In this document: piece by piece, positions 3,001 to 55,462 of the stretch
How positions within the stretch are numbered: the stretch's first letter is position 1
How the letters are laid out: every line of letters starts with the position of its first letter
NCBI RefSeq assembly: GCF_000002985.6
Contig: NC_003284.9
Coordinates: 14,756,001-14,820,000 of the forward strand
Direction: 5' to 3'
DNA: 64,000 nucleotides
Origin: Caenorhabditis elegans
Taxonomy: Eukaryota > Nematoda > Chromadorea > Rhabditida > Rhabditidae
The notes under the pieces: model-generated
The model's database searches: none
Seen by the model: the letters and a program-made list of their open reading frames with translations, nothing else
Told to the model about the DNA's origin: nothing
Translations under genes and position numbers: made by a program

Positions 3001-4963
3001 TTTCAGACAACTAGATCAAAACATTTTTTTGTTGGAAAAACTGAAAATTTTTGTTTTCAACTCTATTAACATACATTTAAGGTCAATCGACGACCAGATT
3101 TGACCAAAATTTGGTAACTTCTGGTTGTACATCGACCTTCAATGTACCGAAATCGAGTCGAAAACGCACGATAATTAACTGTTATAACCAACATTAGACC
3201 GCGATTTCTAAAAAGTTAGTTTCCAGCCGCTGCGACATTGACAAGTCGGTCAAATTTCAAATTTTAACAAATTTTAGGTCATTATTTGAGCTGTCATAAC
3301 TTTTTTTTGAGAAGTTTTCAAGAAGTTTCATTATGAAATGCGGTGTTTTCAGACAATTTTGAGTCTAACAAAGCAATAAAACATTTGACTACATCACCTT
3401 TAAAAAATACCAAGTTGTTCATAAGTTCACAAATAATCCTGACGCAGAATTATATATGAAAAAAATTCTTCCGGAAATTGTTTCAAACATTCTATTTTCA
3501 TTAAAACATAACCTAAAACAAGTTCATATCAACTATGTTCAAGTTCAAAATGTCCCTCTGTGACTAGATACTATGAGTGTGGCAAAATGAAATATTTTTT
3601 TCTTACAGGAATAAGATTGATGTGGAAATTTAAAAGAAAGAAGGAACATTTGTTTTCTTTACAAGCATCATTCTTTTCGACAAAAATTAGTAGTATTTCA
3701 TTACTGTGGTTATTGTATTATGCGCCGTCGACACTATTATCTCTGCACAAAAACATTGCATCACAATGTTACCTCATTGTCTCAAAACACCCGTGAGGTG
3801 CTAAAATCATCTGGTCTCATATTTACCATCTGGTAGCTATTTGGTCTACTATTTGGGCTGACTCTCGTGAACAAGCCACTCGAACAAACGTATATTTTTG
3901 AGAGTAGAAAGCAAACACGTGTTCCGCGTACTAATACATATAAAGGACGAGAGAAGGTGGAAATACCTATGATATTGTTGTAGATATCTTCAGCATGCTT
4001 TATCTTCTTTGTGTCCCGTGGATTTTGTTTCTGGGCCCAGGCAAGGAAACTTGAGCGAAGATATTCCATAACTAGAATATTTTTTTGAGATTTTTCAAAT
4101 GAAAACTTAATAAATTATTCACTCACTTTTCTCTATTCTTTCCAATAATTCAATGGAAAGATAAGAGTGCACAGTCTCATCATATGCCAAGTTCTTACAA
4201 GCTATCAACTCATGAATTGTTGCTTCATCATGTAAATCAATTTCCAAGAGAACTGTGTCTGACACCGCAAATGCATCACGCACTCGGTCGCTCACTGAAA
4301 ATATGAATTATTAGTTGGCGTCATGACTATTTCATTTTGATCTTCCTACCTTCCTTCCAAACCTCGGTGAATGGCACATGAATTGTACCAAAAAGATATC
4401 CCTGAGATGATGCGAACTGGGGATGTTTTACTGACCACAAGAATATATTTCTTTCCCTCTGAAACAAAAATATTGAAAATTATATTAGATTTTTATTTGA
4501 CTTGTTCTTGTAATTTTGATAGCTTTTTATACAATTTTTATACAAATTGGAATCCATTAAGGATTTTTACTCAATATTCAACTTTTAAAATATTTAAATT
4601 TTAAGATTAATGAAAAAACAGAAGATGTAAAACGAGCAGTATTTAGCTCTGGGCTTGTCCTTCTTATTAACGGTTTTAGTCCTAAAACCCTATTTCGAAT
4701 TAAACAAAATTTCACATTGATTTGCTGACTATTGTGAGCTAGATTATTTTGAAGGAAATATACCAGTAACCTGGTAAGTACATTTATTTTTACAGTTCTG
4801 ATGTTTTGAATGAGTTGTCGGAAAACTAGCATTTTTGAAACCTAAAAAATGTAATAAATCAGTGAAACCTCACCTGTTCAACATCGGTATCACAATCGGA
4901 CTGTACAACAGTTACTAGAAACAATGATAAATATAAAGATACAACTAGTATATAAAAGGTCAT
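75..4963 (-). CDS. TIKI/TraB-family membrane metalloprotease homolog
   Basis: Eight exons on the minus strand: 4963-4874, 4458-4350, 4294-4127, 4071-3967, 2551-2355, 1626-1420, 1369-1167, 258-75. All junctions have GT donors and AG acceptors and stay in frame, giving 420 aa. Residues 1-22 form a signal peptide. Residues 54-57 (GTIH, in YLFGTIHVP) and 330-333 (GAGH, in GAGHFFGS) are the two GX2H motifs of the TraB/TIKI fold. The middle part carries [22 protein letters not shown] and EHYKCG, which match the order of motifs in vertebrate TIKI1/2. The C-terminus is a hydrophobic tail ([17 protein letters not shown]), consistent with a membrane or GPI anchor. Vertebrate TIKI proteins cut the N-terminus of Wnt ligands at the membrane; Wnt as the worm substrate is inference. 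Exon 7 could read into a stop directly after its donor, but the spliced form supplies the expected tail. Introns carry two MITEs. Confidence 0.85.
653..942. mobile_element. hAT-type MITE, TAGGGCTC family, copy 1
   Basis: A 290-bp GC-rich block inside the last intron of the TIKI-like gene. It starts TAGGTCTC and ends GAGCCCTA, and shares long stretches such as CTCAAGCCGCATGTAT with the block at 11851-12132. The flanks ATTCAATG and GTTCAATT agree at 6 of 8 positions, consistent with a decayed 8-bp target duplication. No coding capacity. Confidence 0.75.
1674..1959. mobile_element. hAT-type MITE, TAGGGCTG family, copy A
   Basis: Ends TAGGGCTGGCA and, on the opposite strand, TAGAACTGGCA. The interior is a long imperfect palindrome (GGCGGCCGACAATTTCCGAG against CTCAGAAATGGTCGGCCGCC) around a TATAAAATTCTATGATTAAG centre. 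The flanks TTTTTCAG and CTTTTCAG match at 7 of 8 positions, as for a hAT 8-bp duplication. It lies in intron 5 of the TIKI-like gene, 47 bases from exon 6. Confidence 0.8.
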
Positions 4964-6035
4964 CTCGACGTGTCAAAAATGCGAATAGAGTAGACAGAAG
5001 AGTAAGTAGTATCTCAAAAAGCTTTCAAAAATAAATAAACAAAAGAGACACAAAAGCGGACTCCTACAGCAGTTGGTGGTGCGGAAGAAAAAAGAACACG
5101 ACAGAAAAGGAAGCAAAGTTTTCGGAGGCGTGAAAAGGTGGTGGTGGTAGCAGCTCGAGACGGAGCTGGCAGGGTGCGTTTACGCATCCGAGGGCGGGGT
5201 TAGGTGTGAGTGTGGTCCACCATATTGATCTGTCTTGTGATGTGCACTGTTTGAATAAACACCGGTAGGTATTGGTGAGCGATGGGAATTGTAAACTATT
5301 GGACATACGGGAATATGTTTTCTTGGTGGAAATTCATTATATGTACCAACTTTTAAAAAAAGTTCTTATGAAGTAATGTTTGTGGGCCTTTTTGCCTTAA
5401 ATGGCACAAAAAACAAAACAACAGTTCATAGACTTTATTTTAAAAAATGTAATGATTTTATTAATTTTGGTGTAAATAAGGGAGCAGGATAGCTCAATCG
5501 GTAGTGGTAACCGCTAGCAATCTGGAGGCCACGAGTTCAAGTCCGGCCTCACCACCAGGATCACCCAGCCTCTATTGGGAAGTGGAGCAATCTACGACCG
5601 TATTATCGGCCACAATCCGGAATTATTTTTAAACTCCAGTGGAAATGAGTGTGTTTTTCCGGTCTATATTCATCGGGTTTTTTTCTTTTCTTTATCTTTG
5701 TTGTTTTATCATATAAAACATCATTTGTCACATTCAAAGACTAAAGACTCACGTTATAACTTTATTTTCATTTACAAACTTTCAGATGGCAAAAAACCCA
5801 CAGACACTACTTCTTCTCCGAAAATTAAATAAAAAATTTTTCCAAGTATATTTTGGTTTAAAAGTTGCCTAAAATTTAATAACTTTGAAAAGCATGACCA
5901 TAATAAAGCCATATGCATATGTATTACATATCTCAAATAATTTATAATAGTATAATGAAGTATTTCTATTTAATAATTTATTTGGAATACAATGTGCATA
6001 GACAAGCAAAATTAATAGATACAAGTTTTTTCCAT
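4964..6035. other. intergenic, head of TIKI-like gene to tail of carboxypeptidase gene
   Basis: Upstream sequence of the TIKI-like gene and downstream sequence of the carboxypeptidase gene. Apart from the SINE-like element at 5480-5612 I see no coding exon. On the minus strand AATAAA at about 5978-5983 is a candidate poly(A) signal for the carboxypeptidase gene. Confidence 0.6.
5480..5612 (+). mobile_element. tRNA-derived SINE-like element, copy 1 (truncated)
   Basis: Contains a pol III A-box-like TAGCTCAATCGG (5490-5501) and a B-box-like GAGTTCAAGTCC, followed by a non-tRNA body (CACCCAGCCTCTATTGGGAA, then GGAGCAATC and TTATCGGCCACA). The same layout occurs at 47697 and 55234. It cannot be an intact tRNA because there is no acceptor-stem pairing. 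The 3' part present in the other two copies is missing here. Confidence 0.75.
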
Positions 6036-12000: not shown

Positions 12001-15000
12001 ATTTTGCGCCAAGCTGCGGAACCCCGAACGTGTCGGCCGCTCCAAATAACTACCTTTCGCACTTCATTGCACACACACAGATGTGCGCGGCATGAGGCCC
12101 GCATTTCGCGCCTCACTCGGCTGTGAGCCCTACTTTCAACTTACTGTGGAAGAACAGAATGGATCAGCTCCGTCAACTGCTTTGTAGTTGCCAAGATAGT
12201 CGAAGAAGACGTATGGGGTGTAGAAATCACATTGAGTTGGGTCAGTCACATTCTTGCAACATCTTGCAACAAGAGCGTTGTATTCACTAAAATTTAAATT
12301 TGAGTTTAAGTTATGAAAAGTCGAAGAATCTACTTTTCTCCGAAAAGTCCATATGTGTAGAGTTGGAAGATAGCAGAGTTCACTTGCAGCTTGGTAGTCA
12401 ATTCTCCATTACCGATGGCGATTCCCTGAAATTTTGAACATGGGCAAACACTGACAAAGAAATAAATAAAATTCTCGCTCCAACTATGAAAATCAGCCTT
12501 GCCTTAAAGTTTATGTTAATTTCTCCGGCACTGAGCATCTGCAGAAGGAGCTTCGACAGGGTTGGAATGTATACTCCACCATATGACTCTCCGGTGATGT
12601 AAAATGGATTTTGCTTGTATTGTGGGAAGATGTTGTTGAAAAAGTCTTTGAGAGCGTTATAGTTGTCCGAAGCAGTCAAGTCATCTCCATAAGTGTAATC
12701 GTTAGCAACCGTTGAGTATGAGTATCCTACTTGGTGTGGACTCTCGAGGTAGAGAACATTGGCAAACTGAAATTAAATCATGTCTCTGCTTTGTCCTTTT
12801 TTTTTAAATTATCGTACTTTATTCCAGGAGTGAACATTCTCATACAATGTTTGCCCGTCTTTATTCGGACGGAATGGTCCGTTTTCTGTGAGCATTCCCC
12901 ATAGGGAAGAACTTCCAGGTCCACCATTCAACCAGAGCAGCACTGGGCTGTTGGTGGGGTCATTCTGAGATTCTACGAACCAATAGTGGAAACGGTGGGT
13001 GTCTGAAGCGTTCAAGTATCCCGAGTATTGATTGAAATTGATTTGGTATGTGAGTCCTGGTAGATTCACAATCTGAAAAAAAAAGAAATTAGAGATCAAT
13101 AGGCCAAATTCCAAAATAGATCATGAGCACACTACATTCAAAGTGTGATTCTTTTTGCCAAAAGCTACACTCACCTTATCAGCATCACGACGAGTAGCTG
13201 GCGCGGCAAGTTGTTGATAAGCGGGCAGCAATGGCGCGGCGACTTTGTTAACTCGGCTGAGGCAATTGTTGAAAAACAGTCCTAAGACGAAGTCGCGATA
13301 TAGTTGTAGCGATTGTGACGGACGGTTTTGTGGTGCGAAGTGACCGCCACCCTGTAATAATGGGAAATTGCATTCGCTGACGCAATAAGGAAAATTTTTG
13401 AAAAACTTTAAAGGTATTGAAAAAGTATCATAGAAGTATACGATATGATATCGATAAAGAATCTTGTATCAATTTATCAAAAGTTCGAAAATTTCAACTA
13501 GATATTCTTGAAAGTTGTATTATGTAATTCTCGAATTTGCTGAAACTATAAACTTACTCTAATGGATGCGATATGAAAATTGCTCGAGTAACTAGTAATA
13601 ACTCCACCATCCATCCACACAAATGCTGCCGAATCATAGTTATGTCTCCAAATGCGATCCTCGGTTGTGTTCAACTTGAGAGCTGCCGCAATTTCTTGTC
13701 CAAATCTTTGAGCACCAATAAAGTTGCTCCAGAGATCCAGATCTCCATTGTAGATCATGATTTTCATGTTATTTTGAGCATACTTCTCGGATGTTAGAAT
13801 TGAGGAAATTCGGATTTGCAAATCCGTTGAGAGTTCTCCGTATGTCAGATTTCTGATCATATTATTGTTAAGTACTACATAGTATGCAAACTGCTCACCT
13901 GCAAGTCTGGAAGTTTGTACTTGCATTCACACTAACATGAAGTGCAGCTTGAACATCTTGTCTGTTTAAATAAGCGGCGGTGGCTGAAAGTGCAAAGCAT
14001 GGATATCCTCTGAATGAGTCCGTTGAGTTGTAGTTATCTACAGCTGCCTGAAAGTTACTTCCTAATGTCAAGCGTTAAGCGTTATGTTCAATACATTAAT
14101 TCCAAGTTGTTTGAAGGATGTTTGCCATGCAGCTTGGTTTCTGTAGCAGTCTTCGTTGATGTTTGTGTTGTCAATTCTGAAACCAAATTGATACAGAATG
14201 TTCAAGTATGGAAATGACTAAAAGCTTGAACATGTGTTCAAATAGATGGTCAGTAAATTTATAGAATCAATTGTATCAAAAGTTCATTTCTAAAAATCAA
14301 AAGTTCATTTCTAGTTGTAGCTGTGTGATCAAGTAAATCGATAATATCAAACTAAAGGCTAAAATGAATTTAATTTACATTGATTTCAGAACACCCCCTT
14401 CTTGTAAGTACTATCTTATTGGCTCTAAAATTTTAAATTGTTGCGTTGTTGCAATCTGGTCTTTGTTCTCTAATATTTTGTGACCATAGCACTTTCCCCT
14501 CATTTTGATGACTTTCCATTCCCAATTTCACAAGTGATAAAATCAAGTGTGCATTCCAAATTAAAAACGATCAAAAACCACGTACTGATAATTTGACCAA
14601 GTGGCAATTGCGTTGTCAGCTTTGGTTCTGCATGCTGTGTTACTGTTGAAAAAATCGCAAGTTTGGGTGGAAGCATTTGTGCAACAAACTGATTTGAGAT
14701 CGTCATATTGTCTGAAAATAAATTCAAAATGATAAATGATAGAAAAATAGGTCCAACTTTGATCCGGCAAATCCATGAGTGTAGTAGAATGGGATGAGAC
14801 TGTTGTATTGGAGGCGAGCACTCAAGTCACCATTTGCAAGAAGAAGTCCCTGAATTTTTCAAAAATTTCATTTTTAAAATTTCCCAGCAAACTTCAGAAT
14901 TGAACTATGATAAGAATAAATAGAAACTCATAAAATTTGTTTTAATGTATCTGATAGTGTTGCAACAACTTTTGTAGATAACTCACTCGAATATTAACTG

Positions 15001-32259: not shown

Positions 32260-32481
32260 TAGGGCTGTGCAACCAGACGCACATGCGTCCGGTTTGGGGT
32301 AGCTTTCCATGGCGGCCGACAATTTCCGAGTTTCGCCACTGACTATAAAATTGCTGATTAAGTATAGTTAGTCGAGAAACTCGGAAATTGTCGGCCGCCG
32401 TGAAAAGCTACCCCAAACCGGACACATGGGCGTCCGGTGGTGTCAAAATCGGACGACCGGACTACGATCTGTACAGCCCTA
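32260..32481. mobile_element. hAT-type MITE, TAGGGCTG family, copy B
   Basis: 222 bp with ends TAGGGCTG and CAGCCCTA. Flanks CTTAGGTG and GTTAGGTG match at 7 of 8 positions. The arms around 32300-32420 (GGCGGCCGACAATTTCCGAG and its complement) make a long hairpin. Homologous to 1674-1959 and 49873-50040. Confidence 0.85.
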
Positions 32482-47100: not shown

Positions 47101-48235
47101 AAAAATTTTGGCACTTTGCCAAAACTTTGACCGGAAATTATGAAAAATCTAAAATTAACAGAACATGTTAAAAAAAAGCTTATTTTCAGAGAAAAACGTT
47201 CCGAAGAAGCTGCTCGGCAACGAGATAGCAATTCGACAAGCCTTATGCTAGTTGCTATTGTTTCAATTTTTTTGGTAAGTATTTCAAAACCCGCTTCAAC
47301 CGAAATGCATCACTTTTCAGATTGTAAATTTGCCGCAGGCTATATTTATGGGCCTGCTTTGTGTCTGTGAGACGTTTACAATTAAGATTCCAATATTAGA
47401 AGGAACTTTCCCTGCCGTGTTTCTTATCGCTAGTAATATGATCGTTATTGTAAGTTTGGAATTTGCGTTCTGATTTTTGAAGAACTATTTAAAGGCTACT
47501 TATCCCATCAATTTTGGAATCTACTGTTTTATGTCAAGCAGTTTTCGACAAACTTTCAAATTGTTGTTTTGTCCGTAAGTTTTTTTTAGTATTAAAAACT
47601 CAATTTTATTAAAACTTTATTAAAATGGTTCAAGTAATTTGATTTCTGATCAGTGCGCAGCTTTGTCGATTTATTGAAAATTGAAAGTCGTATCTATAGC
47701 TCAGTCGGTAGTGGTGGCCGCTAGCAAACTGGAGGTCACGAGTTTAAGTCCAGCCTCACCCCTAGGTTCACCCAGCCTTTATTGGGAAGTAGAGCAATCC
47801 ACAACTGGACTATCGGCTACATATATCGGCCAGACTTAAGTTACAGCCCAGTCTGAGCACCACCAGGCAGTGTACCTGAATCCCCAATCCGCAATGAATA
47901 GTTTTCTTTGAACATATATCTATGTATATCTTTAAAATTTATTGCTTTGACTTATAATTAATGAATTCAACGTTGAAAAAAATGGTATCAAAATTTATTC
48001 AAGATGAACTGTTCCACTTTTCAGTGGCGCTAGTCAACTCCAATGCGAACGGCGAATCGAAGCTGCAAGTGCCGTACATTCCAGTCGTCGACGTTCCGAC
48101 ATTTGCTCGCATTTGGTGAATGTTTGCACAAACTCTGAGGGATTCATGCAAGTATCCCATCATTGTCTGCACGTCGATTATCTTGTATCGGATAGGCAGT
48201 CGACTCAGTTTACAACGATGGATAGGAGTGATTAA
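44168..48235 (+). CDS. sex-peptide-receptor-related peptide GPCR
   Basis: Eleven exons: 44168-44255, 45159-45259, 45304-45476, 45522-45647, 46083-46164, 46214-46311, 46889-47071, 47190-47274, 47321-47449, 47495-47574, 48025-48235; 451 aa. Class A receptor. Its TM1-TM2 region (LSKKHMITPTNVVLKYMAIAEL), TM3 end (MWLTVLLAAQRYVSISHP, Arg163 in the QRY form of DRY) and TM7 (YPINFGIYCFMSSSFRQTFK) follow the insect sex peptide/MIP receptor pattern. The N-terminal part is short, with a possible glycosylation site (NSS); the cytoplasmic tail is Ser- and Cys-containing. A 3' splice site ending at 44119 (AACTTTCAG) lies 48 bases upstream of the ATG. Introns contain AT-rich repeat fragments (intron 8) and a SINE-like element (intron 10). 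Probably one of the C. elegans sprr genes; I cannot tell which. Ligand unknown from sequence, MIP-like peptides are the family precedent. Confidence 0.9.
44560..44960 (+). repeat. dispersed AT-rich repeat, intron 1 of the GPCR gene
   Basis: Same unit as 22640-23070: GGAGTAGCGCCAGTAGG, TTACTCAGTTTTTGCCACTC, TTTTGGCACTTTGCCAAA, then ACAAAATCCCCACTGGCGCT near the right end. The GGCGCTAC and GTAGCGCC pieces at the two ends are inverted, as for a foldback or MITE. Confidence 0.7.
47095..47160 (+). repeat. fragment of the same AT-rich repeat in GPCR intron 8
   Basis: TTTTGGCACTTTGCCAAAAC followed by TTTGACCGGAAATTATGAAA matches 44828-44875 closely. It fills most of a 118-base intron. Confidence 0.7.
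47690..47920 (+). mobile_element. tRNA-derived SINE-like element, copy 2
   Basis: A-box TAGCTCAGTCGG (47697-47708), B-box-like GAGTTTAAGTCC, then the shared body CACCCAGCCTTTATTGGGAA, TATCGGC, GAGCACCACCAG and TACCTGAATCCCCAATCCGC. Lies in intron 10 of the GPCR gene, in the sense orientation. No acceptor stem, so not a tRNA. Confidence 0.8.
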
Positions 48236-48876: not shown

Positions 48877-48948
48877 GGGGGTATAGCTCAGTGGCAGAGC
48901 ATTCGACTGCAGATCGAGAGGTCCCTGGTTCAACTCCGGGTGCCCCCT
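48877..48948 (+). tRNA. tRNA-Cys (GCA)
   Basis: 72 bases that fold as a full cloverleaf. The acceptor stem GGGGGTA pairs with TGCCCCC (one G-U pair), discriminator T. The D arm has TAGCTCAGTGGCAGAGC, the anticodon arm TCGACTGCAGATCGA with anticodon GCA, and the T arm CCTGGTTCAACTCCGGG. No intron. Downstream TTTTT (about 48954) is a pol III terminator. Confidence 0.96.
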
Positions 48949-49872: not shown

Positions 49873-50040
49873 TAGGGCTGTACAATTTACGAGTTTGGCC
49901 ACTCATTATAAAATTCTATAATTAAGTATAGCGAGTGGCCAAACTCGGAAACTGTCGGTCGCCGAGAAAACATACCCCTCGGAAAATTTTCAAAGTTCTA
50001 AAAACTGGTTTTCTTTCTAAAACCGGACGCACTGTTTTTT
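49873..50040. mobile_element. hAT-type MITE, TAGGGCTG family, copy C (degraded)
   Basis: Left end TAGGGCTGTACA is intact, and the centre CACTCATTATAAAATTCTAT and GAGTGGCCAAACTCGGAAAC match copies A and B. The outer left arm is deleted and the right terminus is lost after ACCGGACGCAC. Confidence 0.75.
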
Positions 50041-50069: not shown

Positions 50070-50430
50070 TGGAATACCGAAATTTGAGACTTGGTTTTCT
50101 AGACTTAGAATGACCCAAAACTACCGAATTTCGTGATGAGAAGTTTTGAAAATTTCTGGAAAAAAGGCTCATTTTCAGCTACAATCAAAATTTTTGCCAC
50201 TTTCTCGGTGTCGCAGCTTATGCAGCAAAAATGTAAATTTTATTTGTGCCCCACTTATCGAAAATGTAGTTAAATCTACGAAAAAATGCGTAACCGCAAT
50301 ATTCATTAGAAAGTAGTAATTATTGAATAAAAACTAAGTGGCAAAATTTTTGGTTTTAGTCGAAAATAAGCCTTTTTCCAGAACATTGAACCGCCACAAT
50401 TTTTTTTTGAAAATTTTTTTTTTAAAGTAC
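50070..50430. repeat. dispersed inverted-repeat family, copy 1
   Basis: GGAATACCGAAATTTGAGAC, then ACCCAAAACTACCGAATTTC and ATGAGAAGTTTTGAAAATTT, recur at 51480-51830. The right part (CCAGAACATTGAACCGCCAC) is also shared with that copy. Confidence 0.6.
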
Positions 50431-51224
50431 CCCGCCTTTAAGCTTATTTAATATTGTATAAAGGACCATTTACCATTGCAAAATAAGCTTTATATAATAA
50501 CTTCGTTATGTCATACCTGTTTTTGTTTTTTTGCAAGACTACTCTATCTTGAACTCATTTTATACCATCTATGAAAAAATGTTCTTTTATCATATTTTGA
50601 TTTATTTTGAACAATCCCTGTTCTTCAAAACCGAAGGGTCAATTTGTGCAGACTGGGTAAAAAAGTACTTGGCGGGTTCCTTCCGACTGTCTGGATGTCA
50701 TAGTTCAAACTAAATTCTGCTTCGGCCAAACGTCGACTGGTATTTTTTTTTGTGTTCCAAACGAGCGTTGAATGGACCACTCTCCACATCGCATTAGTTG
50801 TTGATCGAAGGAGGACCGCCCACATTTGTCAGAAAAAGATATCAATGGGCCCACCTTGGCTTGCTAAATCACAGAAGATGCCTGCCGCGACAGACAATTT
50901 TTATTGCACAAATGTTTGTTTCACGGAGCAAGGTGTTTAATAAGATTTCTATCTATTTCTAATGGGACCTTTTTTCGCATTTAGGTGGCCAAAAAAGTAT
51001 ATATTAGATGTGAGGTATCAGGCGGGTACGGTATTAAAAAAAAAGTGAATTTTATAAATTATCTAGTTAAGGTTTTCAGTTCTCACAAGCCGGCAGTACC
51101 ACCTTTTTAATTTTGCACGAATTTTTGAAAGTGTCTTGCGTCAATAATACATTGCTCTTTGAATATTTTCTCACGCTAGCAAACGAAACTTCAACTACAG
51201 TACAAAAAAATTTCAGCAACTTCA

Positions 51225-51944
51225 ATGAAACAAAAATGCGTCATTATTCTCCTGACAGTGCTTCTGTTGTTACAGGTAAACTTGAAAATTTTCCACGTTA
51301 CATTTGAAAAGTGTTGTTTCAGTTTGCGCTATCACACCCTCTTTTATGGCCATCGCCATACGTCAGGTACCAATTTTGTTTATTATTGTTACTGATAACC
51401 TTGAGAAAGATTTCCTGAAGTAACGTCAAAATTACATTTTCTGAGCCTAAAGTTGAAGTATCACCTATAAAAATATATGCTTAAAAGTGGAGTACCGAAT
51501 TCTGAGATTTAAACCCAAAATGACGTAAAACTACCGAATTATAATGAGACGTTTTGAAATTGTCTTTAAAAAAAGTTATGGGGATTTAAAGTTCAGGAAA
51601 AAAGGCTAACATTTTCAAATGGACCGTGTTTTCCAGAACTTTAAACCGCCATAACTTTTTTTTTGAGAAATTTTCAAAACGTCTCATTACTAAATTAGGT
51701 AGTTTTGGGTCATTTTTGGTCTAAAAAAACAAAGTCTCAAAATTCGTACAAATGTGGTCGACTTCAAAAATTATAGAGCGCCAAAATTTCTATAATATTG
51801 ATAGTTTAAACTTTTTCCAAACTGGTGCTACCCCACCATAAAATTTATTTCAGTGACAAGCACGGAATTGGCAAAAGAGCTTTTGACCGCTACGACTGGG
51901 CAGGTGTGTTTGAATTTGGAGCTCCACCATGGATGCATAGGTAG
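51225..51944 (+). CDS. small secreted neuropeptide-like precursor (61 aa)
   Basis: Three exons: 51225-51275, 51323-51366, 51854-51944, with phases that close exactly (17 codons; 14 codons plus 2 bases; 1 base plus 30 codons including stop). Exon 1 alone is a signal peptide start (MKQKCVIILLTVLLLLQ), continued by FALSHP. The middle part ends in a GKR-type dibasic site (KHGIGKR). The last peptide begins AFDRYDW and ends APPWMHR at the stop. A TTTCAG acceptor ends at 51216, eight bases before the ATG, as for SL1 trans-splicing, and AATAAA lies at about 52136. The layout signal peptide, spacer, dibasic site, peptide is that of nlp-type precursors. I do not recognise the peptide family. Caveat: the end CATAG|GTAGAC could also be a donor, which would extend the protein. 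A 487-base intron 2 is mostly repeat. Confidence 0.65.
51480..51830. repeat. dispersed inverted-repeat family, copy 2
   Basis: Left arm GTGGAGTACCGAATTCTGAG and AATGAGACGTTTTGAAA; right arm TTTTCAAAACGTCTCATTAC. The arms can pair. A related fragment (CATAACTTTTTTTTGAGAAG) is near 3296-3330. It occupies intron 2 of the small peptide gene. Confidence 0.65.
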
Positions 51945-53346
51945 ACATGTTGTATTTCGAAAGTCGCTTATTTTATTTTCAATATTTTTTTTATTTTATA
52001 CCTTACGTTATTCCAATTTAAACATAAGCCCTTGTTCATGTATTACGTTACGATTAATTGCTTTTCCAAGCAAGGCATATCTGTTTTGTTGTCATAAGTT
52101 TTTTTTTTCATTTAATTGAACAATTTTCTGTACTGAATAAAAACTGGCAGAGTGAAAGATTAATTTCAGATTGAAAGAAACGCGTGCGGATAGATTTTTG
52201 GTTAATTTTCTATTGCTTCAATTCTGACAAAAACCCCTTAAAATCTGCTAATGAGCTTTATCACAATTTGGTAAGTTATTGACAGATCAGATGAAACGTA
52301 GACTTAATTCAATTTGCTTTACTATGTATACTCTGCACTGAGAATTTTTTCTGTAAATCTTTTTATTGGCAATGATAAACAAGGGAAGTTGATTGTGAGA
52401 TCATTTGCTGTAACTTTTTTTCTTACTATTAGCTTATAATTATCAAAAAAAAAATGTCTCGTGAAATTGAAAAGTGATTTAAATACACTTTTTGCTATAT
52501 TCAAGTGCCTTCAAAAACATGTTGTTCAATACAGTTTGTGACGTAACTTCTCGACGTTTCTCGAAATTTTTCCACAGTTGTTTTATTATATATTTTTTAT
52601 TTTTATTATATATATTGAAGTTTGACTTACCGTTTCCGCGCCATTTCGATGCTCCGGAAAAATTTCGATGCTGAAAACTTTGAGGCGGAAAAAGTTTGTC
52701 GTGGCAAAATATCGTCGCGGAAAATTTCGCTGCGGAAAATTTTTTTTTTTCAATTTAGTTGCGGTACATTTTCGGAGCATAAATAATTTTGAAAAACGTA
52801 TATTTTTGGATGAAACCAATATTTTTTAAAAGCGTACATTTTCGGATGAAATAAATATTTTTGAATTTTCTAAACACTTTCCTATCTAAAAGAGTCTGAT
52901 CCACTCGAAAAGTTTCACTAACCAAATTTCAAATTGACTTGTCCGATTCCCCCCGATATACTTTTGTTTTTCCACTCACTCCTAATTGTTTTTAGCTAAA
53001 ATATGAGTTTGTCGCCAGTGTTGGAATAATGACGTGCGCTTCAAGTTCACTAGTAGTCATGATGACAAAATAAATGAAAAATGATGACAAAACAAGAAGC
53101 TACAATTTGACTACAACCAACTATAAGTGTTGGTGATAAGTTATAGATCTATCGGTTTCAGATACTTTTTTATTTGAAGAGTAAGGTTAATATCATGCAA
53201 ACGAACAGAATAATACCATTGGCGTATGAAATTTTAAAAAATCCACAATTCGTACAATATAAGGGAAGGATGAAGTTTAGAAAATATTAATAATAATAAA
53301 ATGAGTTGAACTTTCAAACGGAGTAAAAAACATTAAAAATTGAGGT
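51945..53346. other. intergenic between peptide gene and atf-4
   Basis: 3' UTR of the peptide gene up to about 52150 and 3' flank of atf-4 from the other side. Around 52630-52780 there are short tandem variants of GGAAAATTTCG-like units. No coding exon seen. Confidence 0.5.
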
Positions 53347-55233: not shown

Positions 55234-55462
55234 TAGCGACAGATAGCTCAGTCGGTAGTGGTCGCCGCTAACAATCTGGAGATCACGAGTTGAAGTTCAA
55301 GACCCCCTAGGTTTAACCAGCCTCTATTGGAGAGTGGAGCAATCCACTACAGGATTATCGGCCACAGTCCCAGGCTAGGATGTGGCTTAAATTATAGCCC
55401 AGTGAGATCACCACCAGTCAGTTTACCTGAATCCCAGTTCCGCAGAGCATAGCACTTGAAGA
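55234..55462 (+). mobile_element. tRNA-derived SINE-like element, copy 3
   Basis: A-box TAGCTCAGTCGG (55244-55255) and a decayed B-box (GAGTTGAAGTTC), then the shared body: CCAGCCTCTATTGGAGAGTG, GGATTATCGGCCACAGTCCC, GATCACCACCAGTCAGT and TACCTGAATCCCAGTTCCGC. About 229 bp, the longest copy in the window. Confidence 0.8.

Follow-up and report, generated by a model that had tools for sequence, protein, structure and literature searches.

Whether positions 51225-51944 of the 64,000-nucleotide stretch of C. elegans DNA analyzed here (the window) hold a gene for a neuropeptide precursor, and whether its peptide would found a new family or belong to a known one, is the question raised by this locus. 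In our judgment it is quite likely a real, short gene, probably SL1 trans-spliced, encoding a one-copy precursor of the NLP-8 type, that is, an nlp-8 paralogue.

Gene Model and Precursor Layout

The three exons listed in Table 1 (51 + 44 + 91 nt) join in frame to 186 nt and encode 61 amino acids, MKQKCVIILLTVLLLLQFALSHPLLWPSPYVSDKHGIGKRAFDRYDWAGVFEFGAPPWMHR, followed by the stop codon. This bears out the original prediction of a three-exon gene with exactly closing splice phases, which had also placed an acceptor eight bases ahead of the ATG; ATTTCAG indeed ends at 51216, 8 nt from the start codon, and use of SL1 at this site is presumed. The GC content of exons 1, 2 and 3 is 0.37, 0.50 and 0.49, respectively, versus 0.29-0.30 in both introns. 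Donor 2 (CAG/GTACCA) is weak and deviates from the usual GTAAG. By the hydropathy and small-residue rule of the model enumeration presented below, the precursor begins with a predicted signal peptide, which covers approximately residues 1-21 when the cleavage point is read by eye, and a dibasic convertase site, GKR, which would free a short peptide, occupies residues 38-40. Of the layout first proposed, the signal peptide, the GKR site and the C-terminal peptide are retained in this order, but the segment regarded as a spacer may itself be a product.

Table 1. Coordinates of the candidate gene, its surroundings and other genes of the window.
Feature	Coordinates	Strand	Basis
Probable trans-splice (SL1-type) acceptor, ATTTCAG	51210..51216	+	sequence; SL1 use presumed
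Exon 1, 51 nt: MKQKCVIILLTVLLLLQ, most of the signal peptide	51225..51275	+	
Intron 1, 47 nt, GTAAAC...TTTCAG	51276..51322	+	
Exon 2, 44 nt: FALS (end of signal peptide), HPLLWPSPYV, two bases of the following Ser codon	51323..51366	+	
Intron 2, 487 nt, GTACCA...TTTCAG	51367..51853	+	
Palindromic MITE-like element, ~220 nt, within intron 2; arms ~81% complementary	51508..51725	.	
Exon 3, 91 nt including TAG: final base of Ser, DKHGI, GKR site, NLP-8-like peptide AFDRYDWAGVFEFGAPPWMHR, stop	51854..51944	+	
AATAAA, candidate polyadenylation signal, 192 nt past the stop	52136..52141	+	sequence
Serine carboxypeptidase-like genes	window		ORFs by eye
TIG-domain gene, E 1e-06, read as unc-3	window		Pfam
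Aminotransferase PF00155, E 5.9e-53, read as tatn-1	window		Pfam
bZIP gene, E 1.9e-07		-	Pfam
ENTH-domain gene, E 6.5e-32		-	Pfam

Occurrence of Comparable Models in Shuffled DNA

Two- and three-exon models were enumerated if an SL-type acceptor lay near the ATG, the encoded protein started like a signal peptide and a dibasic site was present. Under strict rules the candidate was the sole spliced signal-peptide-plus-dibasic model in the 64-kb window, and models were obtained from 0/40 and 0/1,000 shuffled windows, counts which support the model but are not a formal probability, since all enumeration rules were written after the candidate was known. Under the same strict rules, dinucleotide shuffles gave models in 0/240 plain and 0/240 acceptor-planted sequences, the latter having their TTTCAG sites restored. 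When the rules were loosened, the candidate ATG of the real window permitted a second model, which lacks GKR and has another exon 3 ending at 51724; models of this looser kind arose in 0/200 shuffles. With another looser rule set, 3/120 plain shuffles and 9/120 planted ones yielded any-dibasic models and none of the 240 a GKR model, and with very loose rules the frequencies were 16/40 for any-dibasic models and 2/40 for GKR models.

Codon use of the candidate is intermediate and not decisive for its coding status. It was scored with a codon set that included five carboxypeptidase segments and left out the atf segment. Exons 2-3 (44 codons) scored 6.2 bits, matched or exceeded by 37/1,875 open noncoding windows, and 86/1,306 CDS windows, which overlap one another and are the training genes themselves, scored this low; on synonymous choice only, the corresponding counts were 192/1,875 and 13/1,306. 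When all 61 codons were taken, 32/697 noncoding windows were equal or better and 0/1,170 CDS windows were this low, with 61/697 and 6/1,170, respectively, for synonymous choice only. Such scores may reflect a short, weakly expressed gene and are no proof of coding.

Similarity of the C-Terminal Peptide to NLP-8

The candidate peptide was compared with a library of 118 peptides of presumed sequence from 52 families, which left out NLP-4, proctolin and one NLP-7 variant. The top match was NLP-8-1, which we take to be AFDRFDNSGVFSFGA. The 15 residues starting directly after KR, AFDRYDWAGVFEFGA, are identical to this presumed sequence at 11 positions without a gap, giving a score of 59; the best non-NLP-8 score was 26. 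A score of 59 was reached by none of 1,200 shuffled queries run against the 118 peptides (maximum 44) and by none of 6,772 cross-family peptide pairs, the best of which, at 56, lay between related RPamides. The original prediction had described the precursor as possibly new, its end being known from no named family, a description left unsupported because the core matches presumed NLP-8-1; the PPWMHR tail alone has no counterpart there. Of the eight best library matches listed, a single one, to NLP-36, extends into this tail, over 4 residues and at chance level. The broader claim, that the locus encodes a neuropeptide precursor, is supported by the architecture together with the likeness to NLP-8.

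The other NLP-8 peptides, presumably AFDRMDNSDFFGA, SFDRMGGTEFGLM (the third) and YPYLIFPASPSSGDSRRLV (the fourth), were compared likewise. The score of presumed NLP-8-2 was reached in 17/5,000 gapped and 3/20,000 anchored shuffles. NLP-8-3 is available in print, as SFDRMGGTEFGLM, in a review; its score was reached in 19/5,000 gapped and 37/20,000 anchored shuffles, FDR is common to both peptides, and its best ungapped match to the candidate is out of register. Anchored scores against the candidate were 18 for NLP-8-3, 19 for orcokinin and 18 for NLP-14, and printed NLP-8-3 would thus weakly support kinship with NLP-8, no better than orcokinin or NLP-14 do. The first peptide of the candidate showed no significant similarity to the presumed fourth NLP-8 peptide (596/5,000 shuffles). 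With respect to the two AFDR peptides of NLP-8, a full-text literature search found the letters of neither in print, and it is because of the presumed NLP-8-1 letters that NLP-8 is chosen over orcokinin.

The candidate and NLP-8, as far as the presumed letters of the latter hold, have in common the core AFDR[F/Y]D..GVF.FGA directly after KR, as well as a precursor plan of signal peptide plus dibasic site. NLP-8 peptides end in FGA or GLM ahead of a dibasic site. In the candidate, FGA is followed by the PPWMHR tail and the stop, with no dibasic site after FGA; one core has therefore been kept and the end differs. It is also single-copy, unlike the NLP-8 precursor, which yields several peptides. 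No further R.[FL]DR.[DGN] copy was found near the candidate in the six frames of the window, the only other match lying at 12546 (+). The nlp-8 gene itself is, we assume, D2005.2 and sits at another locus. The candidate thus seems to add a member to a known peptide type, NLP-8, and not to found a new family.

Neither the candidate peptide nor three pieces of it were found in a full-text literature search. In the main text of the reports consulted, none of nlp-85 to -98 or nlp-99 to -118 is described as the candidate peptide, and in the literature found under the clone names T04C10. and F42D1., as far as consulted, there was no neuropeptide gene. The parts of the literature consulted report nlp-8 duplicates in parasitic nematodes, and they describe nlp-99 (T05A8.3) as a C. 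elegans neuropeptide gene that was recognized late through its signal peptide and dibasic sites. It offers a precedent for a late-recognized gene of this plan, although its peptide, unlike that of the candidate, is of the somatostatin/allatostatin C type. The published background used throughout was taken from portions of PMC3527849, PMC13082328, PMC12667811, PMC10728192, PMC7615469, PMC5576490, PMC5656890, PMC6880623, PMC6380545, PMC10050701, PMC8674661, PMC6363226, PMC8857226, PMC8764417 and PMC9881375.

Alternative Readings of the Locus

The alternative that deserves most weight, though we regard it as rather unlikely, is a peptide of the orcokinin/pedal-peptide type. The candidate shares the N-terminal pattern [AN][FL]D..D..G with members of this family (NLP-14, NLP-15 and crustacean orcokinin), and its anchored scores against crustacean orcokinin NFDEIDRSGFGFN and NLP-14 ALDGLDGSGFGFD were reached by 20/20,000 and 18/20,000 shuffles, respectively. 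If printed sequences alone are counted, this likeness equals that to NLP-8-3, orcokinin and NLP-14 both being in print. However, the comparison was picked once the likeness had been noticed, gapped alignment was weaker (80/5,000 shuffles for orcokinin, 241/5,000 for NLP-14), and the scores of 23 and 20 are far under the 59 of presumed NLP-8-1. Unlike these family members, the candidate also lacks the SGFGF[ND] end and has a longer tail, and its likeness to them is much under that to presumed NLP-8-1. NLP-8-type peptides may, as a suggestion only, have branched off from the pedal peptide/orcokinin superfamily; if so, the orcokinin reading overlaps the preferred one and the odds given to the two are not exclusive. 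A genuinely new neuropeptide family, in which the likeness to the NLP-8 core arose by convergence and activity resides in the APPWMHR end, appears very improbable. It would agree with the tail being touched by NLP-36 only, among the matches listed, and with the outcome of wider searches: no match was found in Pfam up to E 1 or among PDB sequences up to E 10, neither of which is expected to contain such a peptide, and 68 viral and 314 prokaryote short-pattern matches gave 0 confirmed by tblastn, as expected for a nematode gene. Against it stands the ungapped identity with presumed NLP-8-1 from the very residue after KR, at a level not seen among the shuffles.

That there is no gene, splice sites and open frame having lined up by chance in AT-rich sequence or a paralogue having decayed, we hold to be equally improbable. 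The weak second donor, the modest codon signal, the repeat sequence upstream and within intron 2, and the GKR models that very loose rules drew from shuffles would all fit this reading, but they are opposed by the failure of 1,000 shuffles to yield a model under strict rules, by the NLP-8-like core directly after GKR and by the AATAAA at the usual distance. Less probable still is that the secreted peptide serves a function that is not neuronal, such as an epidermal or antimicrobial one. A signal peptide plus a dibasic site fits either role; the core, however, resembles NLP-8, which the literature consulted in part presents as a neuropeptide of ADL and HSN acting in sleep. The reading that we prefer is the nlp-8 paralogue.

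Predicted Processing and Possible Role

If the nlp-8 paralogue is transcribed and trans-spliced as predicted, the signal peptide would direct the precursor into the secretory pathway, where a proprotein convertase of the EGL-3/PC2 type would cleave after GKR, and carboxypeptidase E and amidating enzymes would then trim the exposed ends. Cleavage at GKR leaves Gly on the upstream peptide, which turns into the amide; the site would therefore amidate the upstream HPLLWPSPYVSDKHGI and not the terminal peptide, so that HPLLWPSPYVSDKHGI may be a product and not just a spacer. A C-terminal Arg is a substrate of carboxypeptidase E and is probably trimmed off, so the mature candidate peptide may end in PPWMH. 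The products expected from dense-core vesicles, presumably of neurons, would be AFDRYDWAGVFEFGAPPWMH(R) and probably HPLLWPSPYVSDKHGI-amide, and the NLP-8-like part would act on a G protein-coupled receptor common to, or related to, that of NLP-8. It seems unlikely, if somewhat less so than a new family, that the paralogue has escaped annotation, in what is the best annotated of animal genomes, and that its PPWMH tail steers an NLP-8-type ligand to a receptor of its own, one peptide-receptor system having become two in Caenorhabditis alone; we put this a little below the orcokinin reading.

According to the parts of the literature consulted, nlp-8 is expressed in ADL, and hyperosmotic avoidance, which is reduced in the flp-4 mutant, was not reduced in the nlp-8 mutant. 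The gene also belongs to a group of five neuropeptide genes with HSN expression, and additional copies there brought no rise in egg-laying. One review assigns nlp-8 to sleep and names no receptor for it in the part consulted; loss of nlp-8 combined with loss of flp-24 and flp-13 is described in this review as having a synergistic effect on stress-induced sleep. By analogy, the candidate may have a role in common with nlp-8. If confirmed, the paralogue would enlarge by one ligand the peptide set with which C. elegans receptors are deorphanized, could hide effects of nlp-8 loss, and would provide a natural variant, with the core retained and a tail added, for receptor finding.

Neighboring Receptor Gene and Locus

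Pfam was run on five pieces of the window. The receptor gene at ~45.2-47.6 kb matched 7TM_GPCR_Srw in the one exon examined, at E 0.01 and under the cutoff of that model. We take this gene to be F42D1.3, the gene order being in keeping with what we presume to be the right part of C. elegans chromosome X: tatn-1 (F42D1.2), F42D1.3, atf-4 (T04C10.4) and epn-1 (T04C10.2). In the portion of a review consulted, F42D1.3 is listed as SPRR-2 (PMC3527849), and the neighboring receptor is thus probably SPRR-2, provided that the locus is correctly placed. SPRR-2 was activated by only five NLP-38 peptides of a ~350-peptide library in one study, as reported in the part consulted. Like NLP-38/MIP-1, the candidate peptide has two tryptophans. 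These (W7 and W18) are separated by 10 intervening residues and no amidation Gly follows at the C-terminus, unlike the W-X5-8-Wamide motif of SPRR-2 ligands. SPRR-2 as receptor for the candidate is therefore unsupported. The nearby peptide receptor gene to which the original prediction had pointed is a weak hint; proximity is no evidence here because the published ligands of the probable SPRR-2 are the NLP-38 peptides.

Relatives of the MITE-like element of intron 2 lie within 50078-50417, ~1 kb upstream of the candidate, and at 3295-3376. A second inverted-repeat family is found upstream at 49882-50005, as well as at 1727-1898 and 32296-32414, with CGAGTTTGGCCACT / AGTGGCCAAACTCG ends and pieces that are 78-86% identical. 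A further repeat has three copies, 47696-47884 (+), 5489-5614 (+) and 55243-55435 (+), the other two being ~80-86% identical to the copy at 47.7 kb; its start is tRNA-like (TAGCTCAGTCGGTAGTGG ... CACGAGTT.AAGT), and it is probably a tRNA-derived SINE-like element. A tRNA-Cys (GCA) gene at 48877-48948 (+) lies between the receptor gene and the candidate; no other tRNA was detected in the window by ARAGORN or by Rfam at gathering scores. On the minus strand, an ATG-led frame at 54756-54582, MNFNMNYSTEPSQYQSYV..., lies upstream of the bZIP coding frame and reaches a stop soon past the next junction if the splicing is guessed correctly. Two uORFs are reported for atf-4 in the literature consulted in part, and this frame would fit one of them.
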